Notes under the pieces: model-generated
Seen by the model: the letters and a program-made list of their open reading frames with translations, nothing else
Databases searched by the model: none
Told to the model about the DNA's origin: nothing
NCBI GenBank assembly: GCA_009841075.1
Contig: VXMP01000026.1
Location: 1 to 32,267 of the forward strand
Reading direction: 5' to 3'
DNA: 32,267 nt
Source of the DNA: Acidimicrobiia bacterium
Lineage (GTDB): Bacteria > Actinomycetota > Acidimicrobiia > Spongiisociales > Spongiisociaceae
Made by a program: the position numbers and the translations under genes
Shown: positions 10,293 through 28,829 of the stretch, in pieces
Numbering within the stretch: position 1 is the first letter of the stretch
How the letters are laid out: each line of letters opens with the position of its first letter

Positions 10293-12227
10293 TTGAGTAA
10301 AACTACTCGAACAATCGTGGTGTATGGGCTGGTCGTCATGGCCTTGGTACTGATCAGCCAGCGCTTCCTTGACCAGAGCACCAGAGCCGAAGAAATTGAT
10401 CTGACCGTATTCGAACAGATGGTCGAAGAAGGGTCGGTGGTTGAGGTAACCATCCTTGAACGTACCAACGTGATCGAAGGCGGATTGGCCCCCGGCATCA
10501 CCGTGCCCGACGTTCCCGACACCTTCCGGGTCCAATACACGGCCGAATACGAGGGCACCCTAACCGAGCTGCTTCTACAAAACGACGTCAAGGTGGTGGT
10601 TGACCCGGAACCCCCCGGTTTCTGGGACCTGGTGGTGGGTTTCCTGCCCTGGCTTTTGATCTTCGGCTTTATGTTCTTCGTGATAATGCAGATGCAGAGC
10701 GGCGGGAGCCGGATCATGCAGTTCGGTCGTTCCAAGGCCAAACAGGTCACCAAGGACCAGCCCAAGGTGACTTTCGAAGACGTGGCCGGGCTGGAAGAGG
10801 CCATTGAAGAGCTGGGGGAGATAAAGGACTTTCTCCAGTCGCCGGATAAGTTTCGGGCGATGGGGGCCAAAATACCCAAGGGGGTGCTCCTGTACGGGCC
10901 TCCGGGCACCGGCAAAACCCTGCTGGCCCGGGCGGTGGCCGGCGAGGCGGAAGTTCCTTTCTTTTCGATATCCGGTTCCGATTTCGTGGAGATGTTCGTG
11001 GGGGTCGGTGCCAGCCGGGTGCGTGACCTCTTCGAGAAGGCCAAATCATCCGCCCCGGCGATCGTCTTTATCGACGAGATCGACGCAGTCGGTCGCCATC
11101 GTGGTGCCGGTCTCGGCGGAGGCCATGACGAACGGGAGCAGACCCTGAACCAGCTGCTGGTCGAGCTGGACGGTTTCGACGTGGCAGGCGGGGTGATCGT
11201 TATCGCCGCCACCAACCGGCCCGACATTCTCGATCCGGCCCTGCTCCGGCCGGGTCGTTTCGACCGTCAGGTGGTGGTGGACCGTCCCGACCTCAAAGGC
11301 CGTCATGCCATCCTGGATGTCCACGCCAAGGGCAAGCCGATCTCCGACGAGGTGGACATGGAGGCCCTGGCCCGCCAGACCCCCGGTTTCACCGGTGCCG
11401 ACCTCGCCAACCTGATCAACGAAGGTGCCCTCCTAGCCGCCCGTCGCGGCCAGGACCTGGTGGGCCCTCCAGAGCTGGAGGAGGCCATCGACCGGGTTAT
11501 CGCCGGCCCGGAACGTAAGAGCCGGGTCATGAGCGACCAGGAAAAAAAGGTCACCGCCTATCACGAAGGCGGCCACGCCCTGGTCGGGTTCGCCCTGCCC
11601 AACGCCGACCCCATCCACAAGGTGACCATCATCCCTCGGGGTAGGGCGGGTGGCTACACCCTGGCCCTCCCGATGGAGGATCGCAACTATATGCGCCGCT
11701 CCGAGCTGACCGATCAGCTGGCCATGCTGATGGGAGGAAGAGCCGCCGAGGAACTGATTTTCGTCGACCCGACCACCGGTGCCTCCAACGACATCGAAAA
11801 GGCCACCGAGCAGGCCCGGCGGATGGTCATGGATTACGGGATGAGCGACCAACTCGGCCCGATGAAGTACGGCAAAAACAGCGCCGAGGTCTTCCTGGGT
11901 CGGGATTACTCCAGCCAACAGGATTATTCCAACGAGGTGGCGGCGGCGATCGACGACGAGGTCCGAGCTCTGCTGGGCCAGGCTCACGATGAGGCTCGGC
12001 GGATACTCACCACCCATATCGAGGCGCTGCATCGGCTGGCCGAACGGCTGATCGAGGTAGAAACCCTGTCGGCGGAGGAGATCGTCGAGCTCTTATCGGA
12101 CGTTCCTAAATGGGAGGCAAGACACGGTTCGGACCCCCGTATCCAGGCCCCCTCCTTGACCAACTCGGGTCTGGTTGAGGGCGTGGCGGCGGCTCAGGCC
12201 TCCGAGCAAACCGTTTCGCTTCAGTAA
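10293..12227 (+). CDS. ftsH: ATP-dependent zinc metalloprotease FtsH
   Basis: 644-aa membrane-anchored AAA+ protease for membrane-protein quality control. TM1 is about residues 7-24, followed by an extracytoplasmic segment, TM2 (about 113-134), and a basic linker. The AAA domain has Walker A GPPGTGKT (202-209), Walker B FIDEID (259-264) and a second region of homology ending RPGRFDRQ. The peptidase motif is HEGGH (424-428), a conservative variant of HEAGH. The start is TTG at 10293, with a purine-rich AAGAAAGAAAC upstream. The 185 nt between hpt and ftsH probably hold its promoter, though no strong -35/-10 pair stands out. folE follows 4 nt after the stop. Confidence 0.96.
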
Positions 12228-22658: not shown

Positions 22659-22782
22659 AGCAAGTCCCGAAAAGTTATGGATTTCGGTTAGCGCTCCGAG
22701 TCGAAAAAGCGTAGAATGCCCTAATCCAACCTATCCGAAATCCCTCTGAGGAGAAACCCCCCACCAGAAAAGGATCTTGATT

Positions 22783-24861
22783 ATGCGTATGAAGTCACGA
22801 TGGTTGATCTTGGTAGCCGCTTTAGGTCTGCTGCTAGCGGCCTGCGGAGATTCGGAAGAAACCGAAGAACCTACTGCGACCACCGAGGCTTCCGCCCCGG
22901 TCATAACCGAGTCGGCCCCGGACACTACCGCTCCGATGGGTGAGCCGATTTCGGTGGGTTTGTCTTATGATATTGGTGGTCGTGGGGATCAGTCGTTTAA
23001 TGATTCGGCTGCGGCTGGTTTGGATCGGGCGGCGGCTGAGTTGGGTGTTTCTACTTCTGAGGCTTCGGCTAATGAGGATGGGACTAATCGTGAGGAGATG
23101 TTGGCGCTTCAGGCTTCGGAGGGTTCTGATGTGGTGATTGGGGTTGGGTTTTTGTTTGCTGAGCCGATGGCTGCGGTTGCGGCGGAGTTTCCTGAGACGA
23201 ATTTCGCGATTGTGGATTCGGAGGTGGAAGCTCCGAATGTGGCCGGTTTGACGTTTGCTGAGGAGCAGGGGTCGTTTTTGGTGGGTGTGGCGGCTGCTTT
23301 GAAGACGGAGTCAAACAAGGTTGGGTTTATTGGTGGGGTGAATATTCCGTTGATTCATGCGTTTGAGGCGGGTTTTTTGGCTGGTGTTCAGGCGGTGGAT
23401 CCGGGGATTGAGATTTTGTCGCAGTATGTGACGGAGCCTCCGAATTTTGATGGGTTTACTGATCCGGCTGCCGGTCGGGTGATTGGTCAGTCGATGTTTG
23501 AGCAGGGGGCGGATATTGTTTATCACGCGGCTGGTGGTACTGGTGGTGGTTTGTTCCAGGCGGCTAAGGATTATTCGGAGGCGAATGATACGCATGTTTG
23601 GGCGATTGGGGTGGATTCGGATCAGTATCTGACTGCTCCTGATTTTCAGGATTATATTTTGACTTCGATGTTGAAGAGGGTTGATGTTGCGGTGTATTCG
23701 ACTATTGAGTCGGTTCAGAATGGGTCGTTTTCTGGTGGGGTGAATGTGTTTGATTTGTCTGTGGATGGGGTGGGTTATTCGACTTCTGGTGGTTATGTGG
23801 ATGATATTGTTCCGCAGTTGGAGGAGTATAAGAGCCGGATCGTGTCGGGTGAGATCACCGTAAGCCGAGACCCCACCAACCTGGTCGCAACGCCTCCGCC
23901 TCCGATGGGTGAGCCGATTTCGGTGGGTTTGTCTTATGATATTGGTGGTCGTGGGGATCAGTCGTTTAATGATTCGGCTGCGGCTGGTTTGGATCGGGCG
24001 GCGGCTGAGTTGGGTGTTTCTACTTCTGAGGCTTCGGCTAATGAGGATGGGACTAATCGTGAGGAGATGTTGGCGCTTCAGGCTTCGGAGGGTTCTGATG
24101 TGGTGATTGGGGTTGGGTTTTTGTTTGCTGAGCCGATGGCTGCGGTTGCGGCGGAGTTTCCTGAGACGAATTTCGCGATTGTGGATTCGGAGGTGGAAGC
24201 TCCGAATGTGGCCGGTTTGACGTTTGCTGAGGAGCAGGGGTCGTTTTTGGTGGGTGTGGCGGCTGCTTTGAAGACGGAGTCAAACAAGGTTGGGTTTATT
24301 GGTGGGGTGAATATTCCGTTGATTCATGCGTTTGAGGCGGGTTTTTTGGCTGGTGTTCAGGCGGTGGATCCGGGGATTGAGATTTTGTCGCAGTATGTGA
24401 CGGAGCCTCCGAATTTTGATGGGTTTACTGATCCGGCTGCCGGTCGGGTGATTGGTCAGTCGATGTTTGAGCAGGGGGCGGATATTGTTTATCACGCGGC
24501 TGGTGGTACTGGTGGTGGTTTGTTCCAGGCGGCTAAGGATTATTCGGAGGCGAATGATACGCATGTTTGGGCGATTGGGGTGGATTCGGATCAGTATCTG
24601 ACTGCTCCTGATTTTCAGGATTATATTTTGACTTCGATGTTGAAGAGGGTTGATGTTGCGGTGTATTCGACTATTGAGTCGGTTCAGAATGGGTCGTTTT
24701 CTGGTGGGGTGAATGTGTTTGATTTGTCTGTGGATGGGGTGGGTTATTCGACTTCTGGTGGTTATGTGGATGATATTGTTCCGCAGTTGGAGGAGTATAA
24801 GAGCCGGATCGTGTCGGGTGAGATCACCGTAAGCCGAGACCCCACCGTCTACCAGGGCTAA
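22783..24861 (+). CDS. Tandem-domain BMP/PnrA-family substrate-binding lipoprotein
   Basis: Binding protein of the ABC importer encoded next to it. The BMP family mostly binds nucleosides. The ATG at 22783 has AAAAGGA 8 nt upstream; it gives 692 aa with a lipoprotein signal peptide (LLLAAC, lipidated Cys21) and a Thr/Glu-rich tether (22-51). Two complete BMP domains follow (about 52-367 and 375-690), each with GGRGDQSFND, NFAIVD and VGFIGG motifs. They are identical in sequence and separated by a short Pro-rich linker (NLVATPPPP). Typical family members have one domain and about 340 aa. The domains use G- or T-ending codons almost only, unlike the flanks. See findings. Confidence 0.93.
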   Translation: MRMKSRWLILVAALGLLLAACGDSEETEEPTATTEASAPVITESAPDTTAPMGEPISVGLSYDIGGRGDQSFNDSAAAGLDRAAAELGVSTSEASANEDGTNREEMLALQASEGSDVVIGVGFLFAEPMAAVAAEFPETNFAIVDSEVEAPNVAGLTFAEEQGSFLVGVAAALKTESNKVGFIGGVNIPLIHAFEAGFLAGVQAVDPGIEILSQYVTEPPNFDGFTDPAAGRVIGQSMFEQGADIVYHAAGGTGGGLFQAAKDYSEANDTHVWAIGVDSDQYLTAPDFQDYILTSMLKRVDVAVYSTIESVQNGSFSGGVNVFDLSVDGVGYSTSGGYVDDIVPQLEEYKSRIVSGEITVSRDPTNLVATPPPPMGEPISVGLSYDIGGRGDQSFNDSAAAGLDRAAAELGVSTSEASANEDGTNREEMLALQASEGSDVVIGVGFLFAEPMAAVAAEFPETNFAIVDSEVEAPNVAGLTFAEEQGSFLVGVAAALKTESNKVGFIGGVNIPLIHAFEAGFLAGVQAVDPGIEILSQYVTEPPNFDGFTDPAAGRVIGQSMFEQGADIVYHAAGGTGGGLFQAAKDYSEANDTHVWAIGVDSDQYLTAPDFQDYILTSMLKRVDVAVYSTIESVQNGSFSGGVNVFDLSVDGVGYSTSGGYVDDIVPQLEEYKSRIVSGEITVSRDPTVYQG
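22931..23877 (+). repeat. Perfect direct repeat, copy 1 (947 bp)
   Basis: This segment is identical base for base, by line-by-line reading, to 23900-24846. The period is 969 bp (323 codons), so the duplication is in frame. It covers the whole first BMP domain plus 45 bp of ordinary-codon sequence at its 3' end. Flanks differ: a signal-peptide tether before it, and the 22-bp linker after it. Confidence 0.97.
23900..24846 (+). repeat. Perfect direct repeat, copy 2 (947 bp)
   Basis: Second copy of 22931-23877. It ends after CCCACC and the frame then continues only VYQG and a stop, whereas copy 1 continues into the linker NLVATPPPP. Confidence 0.97.
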
Positions 24862-24919: not shown

Positions 24920-26428
24920 ATGAAAACGGCGGTTCGGCTTCAGGGGATAACCAAGCGTTTCCCCGGCGTAATCGCCAACGACAACGTAAACCTAACCGTG
25001 GAAGAGGGCGAGATCCACGCCATCTGCGGCGAAAACGGGGCGGGCAAGTCCACCCTGATGAAAATCCTCTACGGCATGCAGCCACCGGACGAGGGTCAAA
25101 TCAAGGTGCTGGGCGAGCAAATGGACTTCTCCTCGCCCAAGGAGGCCATCGAGTCGGGCATCGGCATGGTCCACCAGCACTTTATGCTCGCCGACAACCT
25201 TTCGGTCTTGGAAAATGTCATCCTCGGTGCCGAGCCATCGTCCGGGCCGGTAATCGATTTCGCCACCGCCCGTACCCGACTCCAGGAACTGGGCGAAGCT
25301 TACGGGCTGGAGCTGGATCCGGACGATCCGGTAGAAACCCTGGAGGTAGGCGAGCGCCAGCGCATCGAGATCATCAAGATCCTCTACCGAGGTGCCCGCA
25401 TCCTGATCCTGGACGAACCCACCGCCGTCCTCGTCCCCCAGGAGGTGGAAGAGCTGTTCCGCAATATGCGGGACCTGAAGGCCGAGGGCCACACCCTCAT
25501 CTTCATCGACCACAAGCTCGACGAGGTACTCGAGATCGCCGACACCATCACGGTGCTGCGCCAAGGCAGATCGGTGGCCACCGTGAAACCGGAGGACGTC
25601 ACCGCCCACGACCTGGCCGAGCTGATGGTAGGTGCCGAGCTCCCCACCCCGGAAGCTCGGGAGAAAACCGAAAAAGATCAGGTCGTGATCGAGGTCGAGA
25701 ACCTCTCCGCCGAGGACGAGGAAGGGGTAACCCGACTGCGCAACGTCGCTTTCCAGGTCCGTTCCGGCGAGATCGTGGGCATCGCCGGCGTAGAAGGCAA
25801 CGGTCAGCTGGAGCTGGTCGAGGCCATCCTGGGTATCGCCCACGTGACCTCCGGTGCCATCCGACTCCACGATCAGGACATCAGCGAATGGCCGGTTCGG
25901 CGACGCCGGGAGGCCGGCCTCGGCTACATTCCCGAGGATCGTCACCGCCGGGGTCTCCTGCTGCCCGCCCCGGTATGGGAGAACGGCATCCTCGGTCATC
26001 AGACCTCCAAGAGGTTCACCAAAGGCATCTGGATAGACGAGCAGTCGAGCGTCAAGTTCGCCGACGAGGTTATCGAACGTTTCGATGTCCGCACCCCCGG
26101 CCCGAGAACCCCGGTTCACGCACTATCCGGAGGCAACCAGCAGAAGCTGGTTGTGGGAAGGGAGCTGGCCACCGACTGTAATCCGCTCATCGCCGCCCAT
26201 CCGACCCGAGGTATCGACGTGGGCTCCCAGGCGGCGGTTTGGGAGGAACTGCGCCGAGCCCGGGCGGCGGGTCTGGCGGTGCTGCTGATCTCCGCCGACC
26301 TCCACGAGCTGTTGGGCCTGAGCGACCTGTTGCTGGTGATGCTGCGGGGAGAGATCGTTGCCCGACTTGACCCCACCGATGTCACCCTCCGGGAGCTGGG
26401 TGCCTACATGACCGGAGCGGCCGCATGA
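24920..26428 (+). CDS. ABC transporter ATPase, double-NBD, nucleoside/simple-sugar type (YufO-like)
   Basis: 502-aa protein with two nucleotide-binding domains. NBD1 has Walker A GENGAGKST (37-45), a degenerate signature VGERQRIEI, and Walker B ILILDEPTAVL. NBD2 has a degenerate Walker A (GVEGNGQ), signature LSGGNQQK, and NPLIAAHPTRGID in place of a classic Walker B. This asymmetry is typical of the RbsA/YufO/NupA subfamily. Its neighbours (BMP lipoprotein and two permeases) make it the motor of a BMP importer. The ATG at 24920 follows directly on the stop of a short frame (24893-24919) and has no good Shine-Dalgarno site. It overlaps the first permease by ATGA. Confidence 0.94.
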   Translation: MKTAVRLQGITKRFPGVIANDNVNLTVEEGEIHAICGENGAGKSTLMKILYGMQPPDEGQIKVLGEQMDFSSPKEAIESGIGMVHQHFMLADNLSVLENVILGAEPSSGPVIDFATARTRLQELGEAYGLELDPDDPVETLEVGERQRIEIIKILYRGARILILDEPTAVLVPQEVEELFRNMRDLKAEGHTLIFIDHKLDEVLEIADTITVLRQGRSVATVKPEDVTAHDLAELMVGAELPTPEAREKTEKDQVVIEVENLSAEDEEGVTRLRNVAFQVRSGEIVGIAGVEGNGQLELVEAILGIAHVTSGAIRLHDQDISEWPVRRRREAGLGYIPEDRHRRGLLLPAPVWENGILGHQTSKRFTKGIWIDEQSSVKFADEVIERFDVRTPGPRTPVHALSGGNQQKLVVGRELATDCNPLIAAHPTRGIDVGSQAAVWEELRRARAAGLAVLLISADLHELLGLSDLLLVMLRGEIVARLDPTDVTLRELGAYMTGAAA

Positions 26429-27546
26429 CCTGGGCGGCCACCAGACGGGTAGTAGGCCCTCCCTTCATCGCCGTAGCCCTGGCCATGCTGGTGGCCTCGT
26501 TGATCCTGGTGATTTCCGGTGCGGACGCCTGGGCGGCCTTCCAAAACGTTCTCGAATACGGTACCCGTCTGGAAACCCTCGTCGAAGCCTCCAACCGGGC
26601 GATACCGCTCTACCTGTCCGGGATCGCCTTCGGCATCGCCATGCGGATGAACCTGTTCCAGATCGGCGTGGAGGGCCAATACATCCTGGCCGCCTTCTTC
26701 GCCGCCTGGGTGGGTGCCGGAGTGGGAACCCTCTTTCCGCCTCTCCACGTGGCCATCATCCTGGTGACAGCCATGGCGGCCGGTGCCTTCTGGGCGGGCC
26801 TGGCCGGCTTCATGAAGGTGACCCGTAACGTCCATGAGGTCATCTCCACCATCATGCTCAACGCCATCGCCGTCAGTGGGGTGGTGGCCTACCTGTTGAG
26901 CCGCTGGAAAATCGAATCGGCCACCCTCGACACCCGGCTGGGCGACATCGCCCCGAGCGGCTGGTTCCCCAGCCTGAACCCGATCCTTGAGCTTGCGACC
27001 CGGGAGATCAAGCGGGTGGAGCTGAGCGGCTTTATATTGATCGCCGCCCTGGTCGGCCTGGTCTACTACCTGTTCATCAACCGCACCCGGGTCGGTTATG
27101 ACATGCGGGCTACCGGTGCCAACCCCTGGGCGGCCGAGGCCGGCGGCGTGCCCCCCAAGCGGACCATAATCCTGGCCATGCTGCTGAGCGGTGCCGTAGC
27201 CGGTCTGGTAGGAATGGCCGACCTACTCAGCGACCAGTATTTCTACAGCCTGCGCTTCCCGCGGGGGTTGGGCTTCACCGGCATCGCGGTCGCTCTACTG
27301 GGGCGGAACCATGCCCTGGGGGTGGCGTTCGCGGCCTTCGCCTTCGGATGGCTGGAACGCGCCTCGGGCATCCTGGAGGTCAGGGGAGACGCTCCCCGTG
27401 AGATCGTCACCATCATGACCGGGGTGATCATCCTGTTTGCCGTCATCGCCTACGCCCTCGCCCAGCGCCGGGCCCGGGCCGAGGCGGCCGCAGCAGCGGC
27501 GGCGCAGGTAACCACCGGAGAAGGACACGGAAGGGGAGTACCGTGA
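26425..27546 (+). CDS. ABC transporter permease 1 (YufP/NupB-like, BPD_transp_2)
   Basis: 373-aa integral membrane protein with about nine to ten hydrophobic helices. The conserved permease region includes FQIGVEGQYILAAFFAAWVG near residues 77-96, VHEVISTIMLNAIA near 140, and the cytoplasmic VGYDMRATGANPWAAE coupling segment near 230. These are hallmarks of nucleoside or simple-sugar importers of the BPD_transp_2 family. The C-terminal tail is Ala- and Arg-rich and probably cytoplasmic. It overlaps the ATPase (ATGA) and the second permease (GTGA), so the three are one translational unit. Confidence 0.93.
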   Translation: MTWAATRRVVGPPFIAVALAMLVASLILVISGADAWAAFQNVLEYGTRLETLVEASNRAIPLYLSGIAFGIAMRMNLFQIGVEGQYILAAFFAAWVGAGVGTLFPPLHVAIILVTAMAAGAFWAGLAGFMKVTRNVHEVISTIMLNAIAVSGVVAYLLSRWKIESATLDTRLGDIAPSGWFPSLNPILELATREIKRVELSGFILIAALVGLVYYLFINRTRVGYDMRATGANPWAAEAGGVPPKRTIILAMLLSGAVAGLVGMADLLSDQYFYSLRFPRGLGFTGIAVALLGRNHALGVAFAAFAFGWLERASGILEVRGDAPREIVTIMTGVIILFAVIAYALAQRRARAEAAAAAAAQVTTGEGHGRGVP

Positions 27547-28829
27547 GTGCTATAACCGATAACCGGATGCTCGGCCTGCCGGGTGGCAACCTGATCCGAG
27601 GACGCACCCGCTGGATCATCTACGGACTGGTCGGCATCTTCATGTTGTCGATCACCCAACAGGTCGCCAAGCTCCCCACCGACGACCTCACCTCCAGCGG
27701 CACCTGGTCGATCGCCCTGGCCTGGTCGGTTCCCATCCTCCTGGCCGGTCTGGGCGGCATCTTCTCCGAGCGTTCCGGGGTGGTGAACATCGGACTGGAG
27801 GGCATGATGATCCTCGGCACCTGGTGGGGTGCCTATGGAACGGTAGTGGTCGGCCCCTGGTACGGGATGCTGCTGGCGCTGATCGCCGGGGCGGTGGGCG
27901 GCCTGATCATGGCGATAGCCGCCGTGGGATTCAACGTAGACCATATCATCGCCGGAGTCGCCATCAACCTCATGGCTCCGGGGCTAAACCGGTTCCTGTC
28001 CAACATCCACTTCTCCGACCGGGGCGGGTCCCTAACCCAGTCACCGGCCATCAGCGGGGTGGGTAACTTCACCGTTCCGGTTCTGGCTGGAGGAACCGCC
28101 TTCGGCTGGGATAGCCCCGACGCCCTCGGTGCCCTGGAACGGGCCGACTGGTTCTTCGTCTCCGACCTGGCCGGCGTGCTCCGTGGTTTCGTCTTCCAGA
28201 TTTCGTGGCTGACCCTGGTGGCCTACCTGGTGGTTCCCTTAAGCATCTTCGTCCTCTGGAGAACCCGTTTCGGCCTCCGTCTCCGAAGCTGCGGCGAGCA
28301 CCCCCACGCCGCCGACTCCCTCGGGGTCAACGTCTACAAATACAAGTACTACGGCGTGATCATCAGCGGTGCCCTGGCCGGATTCGGCGGAGGTTTCCTG
28401 GCAGTCCAGCTGTCGGGCCTCTACCGGCAGGGTCAAACCCTGGGCAAAGGCTTCGTCGGCCTGGCCACCGTCATCTTCGGCAACTGGAACCCCTTCGGTG
28501 CCGCCCGAGGAGCGCTGCTGTTCGGCTTCACCGAAACCCTCCGCCTAAGGGACGAAAACGCCGCCCACGGCCTACTGCTATTGGCCATGATCGGCATCGG
28601 CCTGTTCGTACTGTGGCGATTGTTCCGACGGAAGGGCTATATAGGAACCCTCCAGCTGGCCATAGTGGCTATAGCCATCGGCTTCTGGTACCTCAACACC
28701 GCCGACGTCCCCAACCAGCTCCCCGCCATCACCCCCCACATAGCCGTGCTGGTGGTACTCCTATTCGCCACCTCCCGTCTCCGCCCCCCCGCCGCCGACG
28801 GCCTCCCCTACCGCAAAGGCGAAAACTAA
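27543..28829 (+). CDS. ABC transporter permease 2 (YufQ/NupC-like, BPD_transp_2)
   Basis: 428-aa second permease. It has the family block SERSGVVNIGLEGMMILGTWWG (near residues 77-98), FNVDHIIAGVAINLMAPGLNRFL, and the coupling segment RFGLRLRSCGEHPHAADSLGV. YufQ-type proteins are usually about 310-320 aa. The extra length here comes from an N-terminal helix, a longer loop (about 160-215) and two added C-terminal hydrophobic segments. The GTG start at 27543 overlaps the upstream TGA. The 3' end overlaps the stop of the convergent P450 gene by 4 nt, leaving no room for a separate terminator. Confidence 0.92.
   Translation: MSAITDNRMLGLPGGNLIRGRTRWIIYGLVGIFMLSITQQVAKLPTDDLTSSGTWSIALAWSVPILLAGLGGIFSERSGVVNIGLEGMMILGTWWGAYGTVVVGPWYGMLLALIAGAVGGLIMAIAAVGFNVDHIIAGVAINLMAPGLNRFLSNIHFSDRGGSLTQSPAISGVGNFTVPVLAGGTAFGWDSPDALGALERADWFFVSDLAGVLRGFVFQISWLTLVAYLVVPLSIFVLWRTRFGLRLRSCGEHPHAADSLGVNVYKYKYYGVIISGALAGFGGGFLAVQLSGLYRQGQTLGKGFVGLATVIFGNWNPFGAARGALLFGFTETLRLRDENAAHGLLLLAMIGIGLFVLWRLFRRKGYIGTLQLAIVAIAIGFWYLNTADVPNQLPAITPHIAVLVVLLFATSRLRPPAADGLPYRKGEN

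Follow-up and report, generated by a model that had tools for sequence, protein, structure and literature searches.

A block of G/T-ending codons in a twin-domain BMP lipoprotein gene of an uncultured Acidimicrobiia family and its possible link to recombination between repeats

The preferred pairing sequences of RecA/Rad51 are reportedly GT-rich, according to Tracy and Kowalczykowski. In Borrelia, the vls silent cassettes, which serve antigenic variation by gene conversion, convert into vlsE, and a coding-strand GC skew of 0.52 was reported that is absent from the non-recombining vlsH (PMC11499132). In addition, RecA filaments were found to be most stable on TGG repeats (Kim et al. 2013, PMC3763553). 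In the present study, we analyzed a 32,267-nucleotide stretch of DNA (the window) containing a lipoprotein gene with two substrate-binding domains. A coding-strand skew of the vls type was observed in this gene (0.47), but an expression site with a silent cassette array was not, and a search of the BMP places in the same genome revealed no vls-like cassette array. The features are listed below, where K3 is the fraction of codons ending in G or T.

22777-24861, + strand: lipoprotein gene with two BMP/PnrA-like substrate-binding domains (PF02608 in two stretches, E 7e-125)
22777-22935, + strand: signal peptide, lipobox and acidic/Thr-rich linker, ordinary codons (K3 0.53)
22931-23877, + strand: exact tandem repeat unit, copy 1, 947 bp
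22936-23832, + strand: G/T-wobble block, copy 1 (K3 0.97, GC skew +0.47, AT skew -0.37)
23833-23904, + strand: C-terminal tail of the domain and proline-rich inter-copy linker, ordinary codons (SRIVSGEITVSRDPTNLVATPPPP)
23900-24846, + strand: exact tandem repeat unit, copy 2, 947 bp, 100% identical to copy 1
23905-24801, + strand: G/T-wobble block, copy 2, identical to copy 1
24802-24861, + strand: C-terminal tail of copy 2 and stop codon, C-rich wobble (K3 0.30)
24920-26428, + strand: ABC importer ATPase with two ABC_tran domains, ordinary codons (K3 0.42)
26425-27546, + strand: ABC importer permease (BPD_transp_2)
27543-28829, + strand: ABC importer permease (BPD_transp_2)

The lipoprotein gene likely starts at ATG 22783, with TTG 22777 as the alternative, and its N-terminus (MRMKSRWLILVAALGLLLAACGDSEE) contained the lipobox LLLAAC. 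A Pfam profile search matched PF02608 in two stretches with 416 bits, compared with a cut-off of 24.1. Downstream of the gene, PF00005 followed by two PF02653 matches formed the usual importer operon. The twin-BMP lipoprotein is the predicted substrate-binding part of an ABC nucleoside-type importer.

An earlier note on this DNA had described about 299 codons ending almost only in G or T, with about eight exceptions. Our count gave exactly eight: the third positions of 22936-23832 comprised 2 A, 6 C, 145 G and 146 T, and 291/299 codons were G/T-ending (binomial log10 P of about -78 against the genome rate of 0.486). The mean K3 of the genome was 0.485-0.486, with an sd of 0.062-0.066 and a 99th percentile of 0.66 (952-959 ORFs, 1.17 Mb). 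The abrupt edges and ordinary surroundings described in that note were also observed, since K3 fell from 0.97 in the block to 0.53 in the signal peptide and linker, 0.46 in the inter-copy linker and 0.30 in the tail, and the remaining genes of the window ranged from 0.32 to 0.56. Within the block, AAT, GAT, TAT, TTT and ATT were used almost exclusively, and leucine was encoded by TTG in 16 of 18 cases, so the skew extended to the first base. The GC skew of the coding strand was 0.47, compared with 0.02 for the rest of the window. The ATG at 22936, with which the block begins, is an internal codon of a gene starting at about 22783/22777. A literature search did not find a description of such a codon pattern. 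Separately, the last 15-20 codons of the repeat unit (23833-23877 and 24802-24846) escaped the G/T bias, and the same escape of the tail was seen in the sugar-binding and PstS-like domains described below. In 75 loci with non-tandem homologues, the G/T fraction of the tail was no lower than that of the body (0.424 vs. 0.375).

The block itself was real, but the single block of the earlier note turned out to be one of two. The repeat at 22931-23877 equals 23900-24846 letter for letter at an offset of 969, so a second identical G/T block (23905-24801) follows the first. On its right side, the block stops 45 bp short of the end of the repeat unit. Identity of 100% in a draft metagenome assembly might point to a false duplication of the second copy. 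We consider such an artefact extremely improbable, because double genes with diverged copies were present in several independent assemblies and the flanks of copies 1 and 2 were unlike (AACCTGGTC... vs. GTCTACCAG...); the codon block is in any case independent of the duplication.

The same twin gene was found in eight Acidimicrobiia relatives of the same family (e.g., OY282370.1, JAJEIM010000037.1 and WTGI01000074.1), in which the order ClpC - BMP-BMP - ATPase - permease - permease and the linker (SRDP...PPPP) were kept. The amino acid identity to the relatives was 82-85% for the BMP domain and 80% for the neighbouring ATPase. The K3 of the twin BMP in the relatives was 0.50-0.56, and it reached 0.67-0.71 in OY282370.1 (G011), giving an overall range of 0.50-0.71. 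As one candidate explanation, the earlier note had named a foreign origin of the domain, in a strongly keto-biased donor, which the abrupt block edges would favour. The twin architecture, linker and synteny were conserved, the BMP domain had diverged as its neighbours had, with no atypical synteny or divergence, and G011 was intermediate in K3; to our knowledge, no genome has 97% G/T-ending codons. Because the twin domain, linker and synteny were conserved and the orthologues had a K3 of 0.50-0.71, import of the domain appears unlikely, and we assign it hardly any probability. In non-tandem BMP homologues, the BMP gene was on average 0.10 below its neighbours in K3 (68 loci). The three tandem BMP loci of the family that were checked were 0.04-0.21 above their neighbours, and the separate tandem BMP of L102 was not G/T-coded. 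Five BMP places were found in the genome in total, of which two were the identical twin copies and the others, located elsewhere, were two further BMP genes and one weaker match; the non-twin BMP genes that were checked had ordinary codons (e.g., K3 0.40 in L087).

The two BMP halves of the relatives were 85-95% identical, with long stretches of 100% identity between them, the mark of gene conversion. The copies of the present gene were 100% identical to each other and shared only 82-85% of amino acids with the relatives, the pattern of concerted evolution in a tandem repeat. The converted tracts in the relatives did not have a higher K3 than the remainder. At fourfold sites, the purine/pyrimidine class was kept about as well as it was between relatives (0.56-0.66 vs. 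0.64-0.80). These comparisons show that the block forms the body of a substrate-binding domain that was inherited vertically and exists as an ancient in-frame tandem pair. The patchy 100% identity in the relatives, together with the identical halves here, shows that the twin halves are kept alike by repeated copying between them.

To search for other blocks, 1.17 Mb of this genome (about half) and 0.8 Mb of the relative G011 were scanned using a simple gene caller, and a tandem window was defined as 60 codons with a copy at least 80% identical within 2.5 kb. Other G/T-wobble blocks existed, and they were enriched in tandem windows, which had a mean K3 of 0.657 with 26.8% above 0.8, compared with 0.481 and 0.3% in the other windows; below 100% identity the criterion is partly circular and inflates this association, since diverged copies written with a two-letter wobble resemble each other more closely. 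The exact twins, namely BMP here and a sugar-binding gene in five genomes, are free of this problem. An NNK pattern scan also fired in antisense frames of low-complexity genes and was unfit for counts. The usage was in general not shared by many native genes, the finding that would have made the block unexceptional, as G/T blocks occurred in only about ten gene families in the sampled half of the genome. The search for native genes with the same usage thus brought out tandem repetition as the real correlate. The tandem set spanned unrelated families, including RCC1-like lipoproteins, copper ATPase HMA domains, Calx-beta-like surface repeats, PaREP1, a coiled coil, a nucleotidyltransferase pair and a giant repeat protein. 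In summary, the synonymous shift was almost wholly towards G/T, and the same shift was strongly enriched in other tandem coding DNA of the family.

G011 encoded another, independent twin binding protein, of the Peripla_BP_4 (sugar) type (L303:4956-7109, - strand), with copies 99.9% identical over 912 bp and a K3 of 0.88-0.90. Its orthologues in G003, G006, G007 and G009 were also twins, with copies 99.9-100% identical and a K3 of 0.74-0.76. In the five twin genomes, the neighbours of this gene had a K3 of 0.44-0.50, compared with 0.74-0.88 for the gene itself. G002 and G005 carried a single copy (K3 0.77), which may represent collapsed repeats or recent loss. Twin substrate-binding domains have thus arisen at least twice in the family. 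The association was not complete in either direction: tandem arrays without G/T coding were found (L086, cytochrome pairs and lagging-strand PaREP1), as were blocks without a tandem copy (PstS-like, HTH_66 at a contig end, a PPDK_N gene and an SLH gene in G011). A search for a recombination-like motif common to the blocks gave none. As an outside control, Escherichia coli yeeJ and flu had 38 codons and none, respectively, in near-identical repeats, too few to say much.

Several individual blocks were recorded in addition. The single-copy PstS-like gene (L229:10101-11174, L255-L265) had a raised K3 in the domain but not in the signal peptide or tail, and its K3 was 0.57-0.78 in all orthologues found in the genus. 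In an HTH_66 regulator fragment at the end of contig C55 (L084:2-364, - strand), 120/121 codons were G/T-ending (K3 0.99), with orthologues at 0.66 in G011 and 0.41-0.55 in genus-mates. A Calx-like repeat (L078:9994-10233 and 10392-10631) consisted of exact 240-bp copies in which 80/80 codons ended in A or C, a mirror image of the G/T block.

Exported proteins were frequent among the carriers of blocks (BMP, PstS-like, sugar-binding, SLH, Calx-beta-like and RCC1 lipoproteins), and the domain body was C-poor with a C-rich 3' tail. Both observations would fit selection for C-poor (and A-poor) transcripts, which is, next to the strand-specific mutation considered below, one of the two main rival explanations. 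Rho loads on C-rich RNA and actinobacterial RNase E cuts 5' of cytidines, so that abundant mRNAs of binding and surface proteins would lose C at the wobble position. Cutting upstream of cytidines was found for mycobacterial RNase E (PMC10641625). However, ribosomal proteins, rpoB and rpoC (0.47-0.52) and most other lipoproteins were ordinary, the Calx-like repeats of L078 had the opposite, C-rich wobble, and the avoidance of A and the link with repeats would be left unexplained; we regard this explanation as unlikely. Export as a common cause of the G/T wobble was rejected, because most lipoproteins were ordinary.

Translational selection, with G/T-ending codons either optimal or deliberately slow, was also considered. 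Several of the biased genes code for kinds of protein that tend to be abundant, which would favour it. EF-Tu domain 3 (PF03143) had no match in this draft genome (rated 96% complete) and was probably lost in assembly; the expression yardstick was therefore the ribosomal proteins and rpoB/C. The ribosomal proteins L11, L1, L10 and L7/L12 and rpoB/C were ordinary (K3 0.47-0.52), so the G/T usage is not a general expression optimum. Moreover, the near-exclusive AAT, GAT, TAT, TTT and ATT run against C-ending codons, which are the usual optimum, and the codons of the signal and linker were exempt. These results suggested that translational selection is very unlikely.

The relation to the replication strand was evaluated in G011, whose dnaA lies at 1.386 Mb. 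Left of dnaA, the K3 of tandem genes was 0.723 on the leading strand vs. 0.413 on the other, although several '+' repeat ORFs of G011 matched no family and are possibly spurious, and that of non-tandem genes was 0.497 vs. 0.453. In the present genome, where the strands of the draft contigs were inferred from skew, tandem K3 was 0.67 leading vs. 0.46 other. Well-founded lagging cases were a cytochrome pair of G011 (0.38-0.42) and the PaREP1 and cytochrome arrays of this genome (0.30-0.42). The BMP and PstS-like blocks were on the inferred leading strand, and the HTH_66 block (K3 0.99) was on the inferred lagging strand. A leading-strand effect on the G/T wobble is thus suggestive, a tendency rather than a rule, with one strong exception. 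As a separate observation, PaREP1 arrays (L243:7561-8309, L067:2949-5396 and L091:5475-6457) had opposite wobble, with K3 of 0.71-0.77 on the leading and 0.26-0.50 on the lagging strand (inferred).

These strand differences, and the purine/pyrimidine class kept at fourfold sites, would agree with a strand-specific mutation bias linked to replication (C to T and A to G in the leading-strand sequence). It would be amplified in tandem repeats, where slippage and conversion expose single strands and lead to frequent re-synthesis. The direction of substitution spoke otherwise. At amino acid-changing sites there was no G/T-ward excess: transitions specific to this genome were 1 G/T-ward and 3 A/C-ward, and pairwise counts were 7-13 G/T-ward vs. 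12-19 A/C-ward. In the sugar-binding gene, G-T exchanges, which are transversions, made up 31/56 changes at K (G or T) sites, compared with 16/99 in the less biased BMP (Fisher p 6e-7), changes out of K were rare, and G-to-C and T-to-A were nearly absent; these flux data come from one gene in six closely related genomes, polarised by majority with G011 as the outgroup. Together with the strong HTH_66 block on the inferred lagging strand, these results left strand-specific mutation rather improbable. Of the strand-specific deamination proposed in the earlier note, the tendency of strong repeat blocks towards the leading strand held up; the missing G/T-ward excess, the G-T exchange and the lagging HTH_66 block did not agree with it. 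Third-position transversions against distant relatives were dropped as a case against deamination, because synonymous sites are near saturation. Since G-T exchange continued while changes to A/C were suppressed, the pattern in the sugar-binding gene indicates a fixation bias towards keto bases, not a deamination bias alone.

The folding of single-stranded DNA was then compared between codings. Per 150 nt, G/T coding gave -15.5 and -9.6 kcal/mol for the two strands, vs. -25.3 and -21.3 kcal/mol for genome coding, and with DNA parameters the strands of the block folded less with G/T than with A/C or GC3-matched coding. The A/C-wobble repeat of L078 is rich in A/C at the first two positions, and there A/C coding was the least structured choice. 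Self-complementary 5-mers were also fewer in tandem windows than in GC3-matched recodings (0.91 vs. 1.17, p 5e-17). mRNA structure was rejected as a cause, because with RNA parameters G/T coding was not the minimum and A/C would be. G/T coding therefore minimises single-strand DNA structure, not RNA structure.

Collectively, the results suggested that the unusual wobble is part of the maintenance or exchange of the repeats rather than a sign of import. We tentatively favour, at somewhat below an even chance, a fixation bias that acts on the DNA, through selection or a conversion drive, and that would be linked to homologous recombination between the repeats, as in the vls cassettes of Borrelia. 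The exact repeat, the conserved twin gene with its mosaic identity tracts, the enrichment in tandem windows, the independent sugar-binding twin, the substitution flux, the weak folding of the DNA strands and the published RecA and vls findings speak for this reading. The blocks without a tandem copy, the tandem arrays and the L102 BMP pair without G/T coding, the single-copy sugar-binding genes, the unraised K3 of converted tracts, the escape of the unit's last codons, the lack of a common motif and the partly circular repeat criterion speak against it. Separation of keto and amino bases between the strands would leave neither able to fold on itself, and the G/T strand would be a preferred RecA substrate. 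G/T alleles might then pair and convert more readily and so spread between copies, or they might instead be favoured for keeping the array homogeneous and its copy number changeable. A leading-strand bias, perhaps via gaps in the lagging-strand template, may set which strand turns G/T. The narrower proposal of a two-letter wobble alphabet, with G/T on the coding and usually leading strand, produced in homogenised tandem protein repeats of this uncultured Acidimicrobiia family by a recombination-linked keto-favouring drive, a strand-aware counterpart of GC-biased gene conversion, is speculative, and we hold it to be doubtful.

If the fixation bias is real, bacterial synonymous sites can be driven near fixation by a keto-vs-amino force on one DNA strand, a force that neither translational selection nor GC-biased conversion would explain. 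The family also offers a natural experiment on how tandem repeats stay identical, as the same domains occur single or twin in sister species. In addition, extreme codon usage inside a gene is not proof of import.

Compared with known systems, this locus resembles Borrelia vls in that repeats of a surface-protein gene convert each other and the coding strand has a strong GC skew (0.52 there, 0.47 here). Unlike in Borrelia, the locus has neither a silent array nor copies that vary, an antigenic role is not implied, and the skew also involves an excess of T over A and is located at wobble positions. The preferred pairing sequences of RecA/Rad51 are, like the block, a GT-rich strand with little self-structure, and they concern an in vitro property of the protein (PMC3763553); a family-wide recoding of repeated genes was not found described in that literature. 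The direction of the bias is shared between replication strand asymmetry and most tandem cases, with at least one exception, but the magnitude differs, at about 0.04 in ordinary genes vs. about 0.3 in tandem genes (G011). Finally, the gene shares with BMP/PnrA-like lipoproteins (PF02608) the domain, the lipoprotein signal and the operon with an ATPase and two BPD_transp_2 permeases. Most PF02608 homologues found were single-domain with ordinary codons, whereas this gene has twin domains, identical copies and an extreme G/T wobble.
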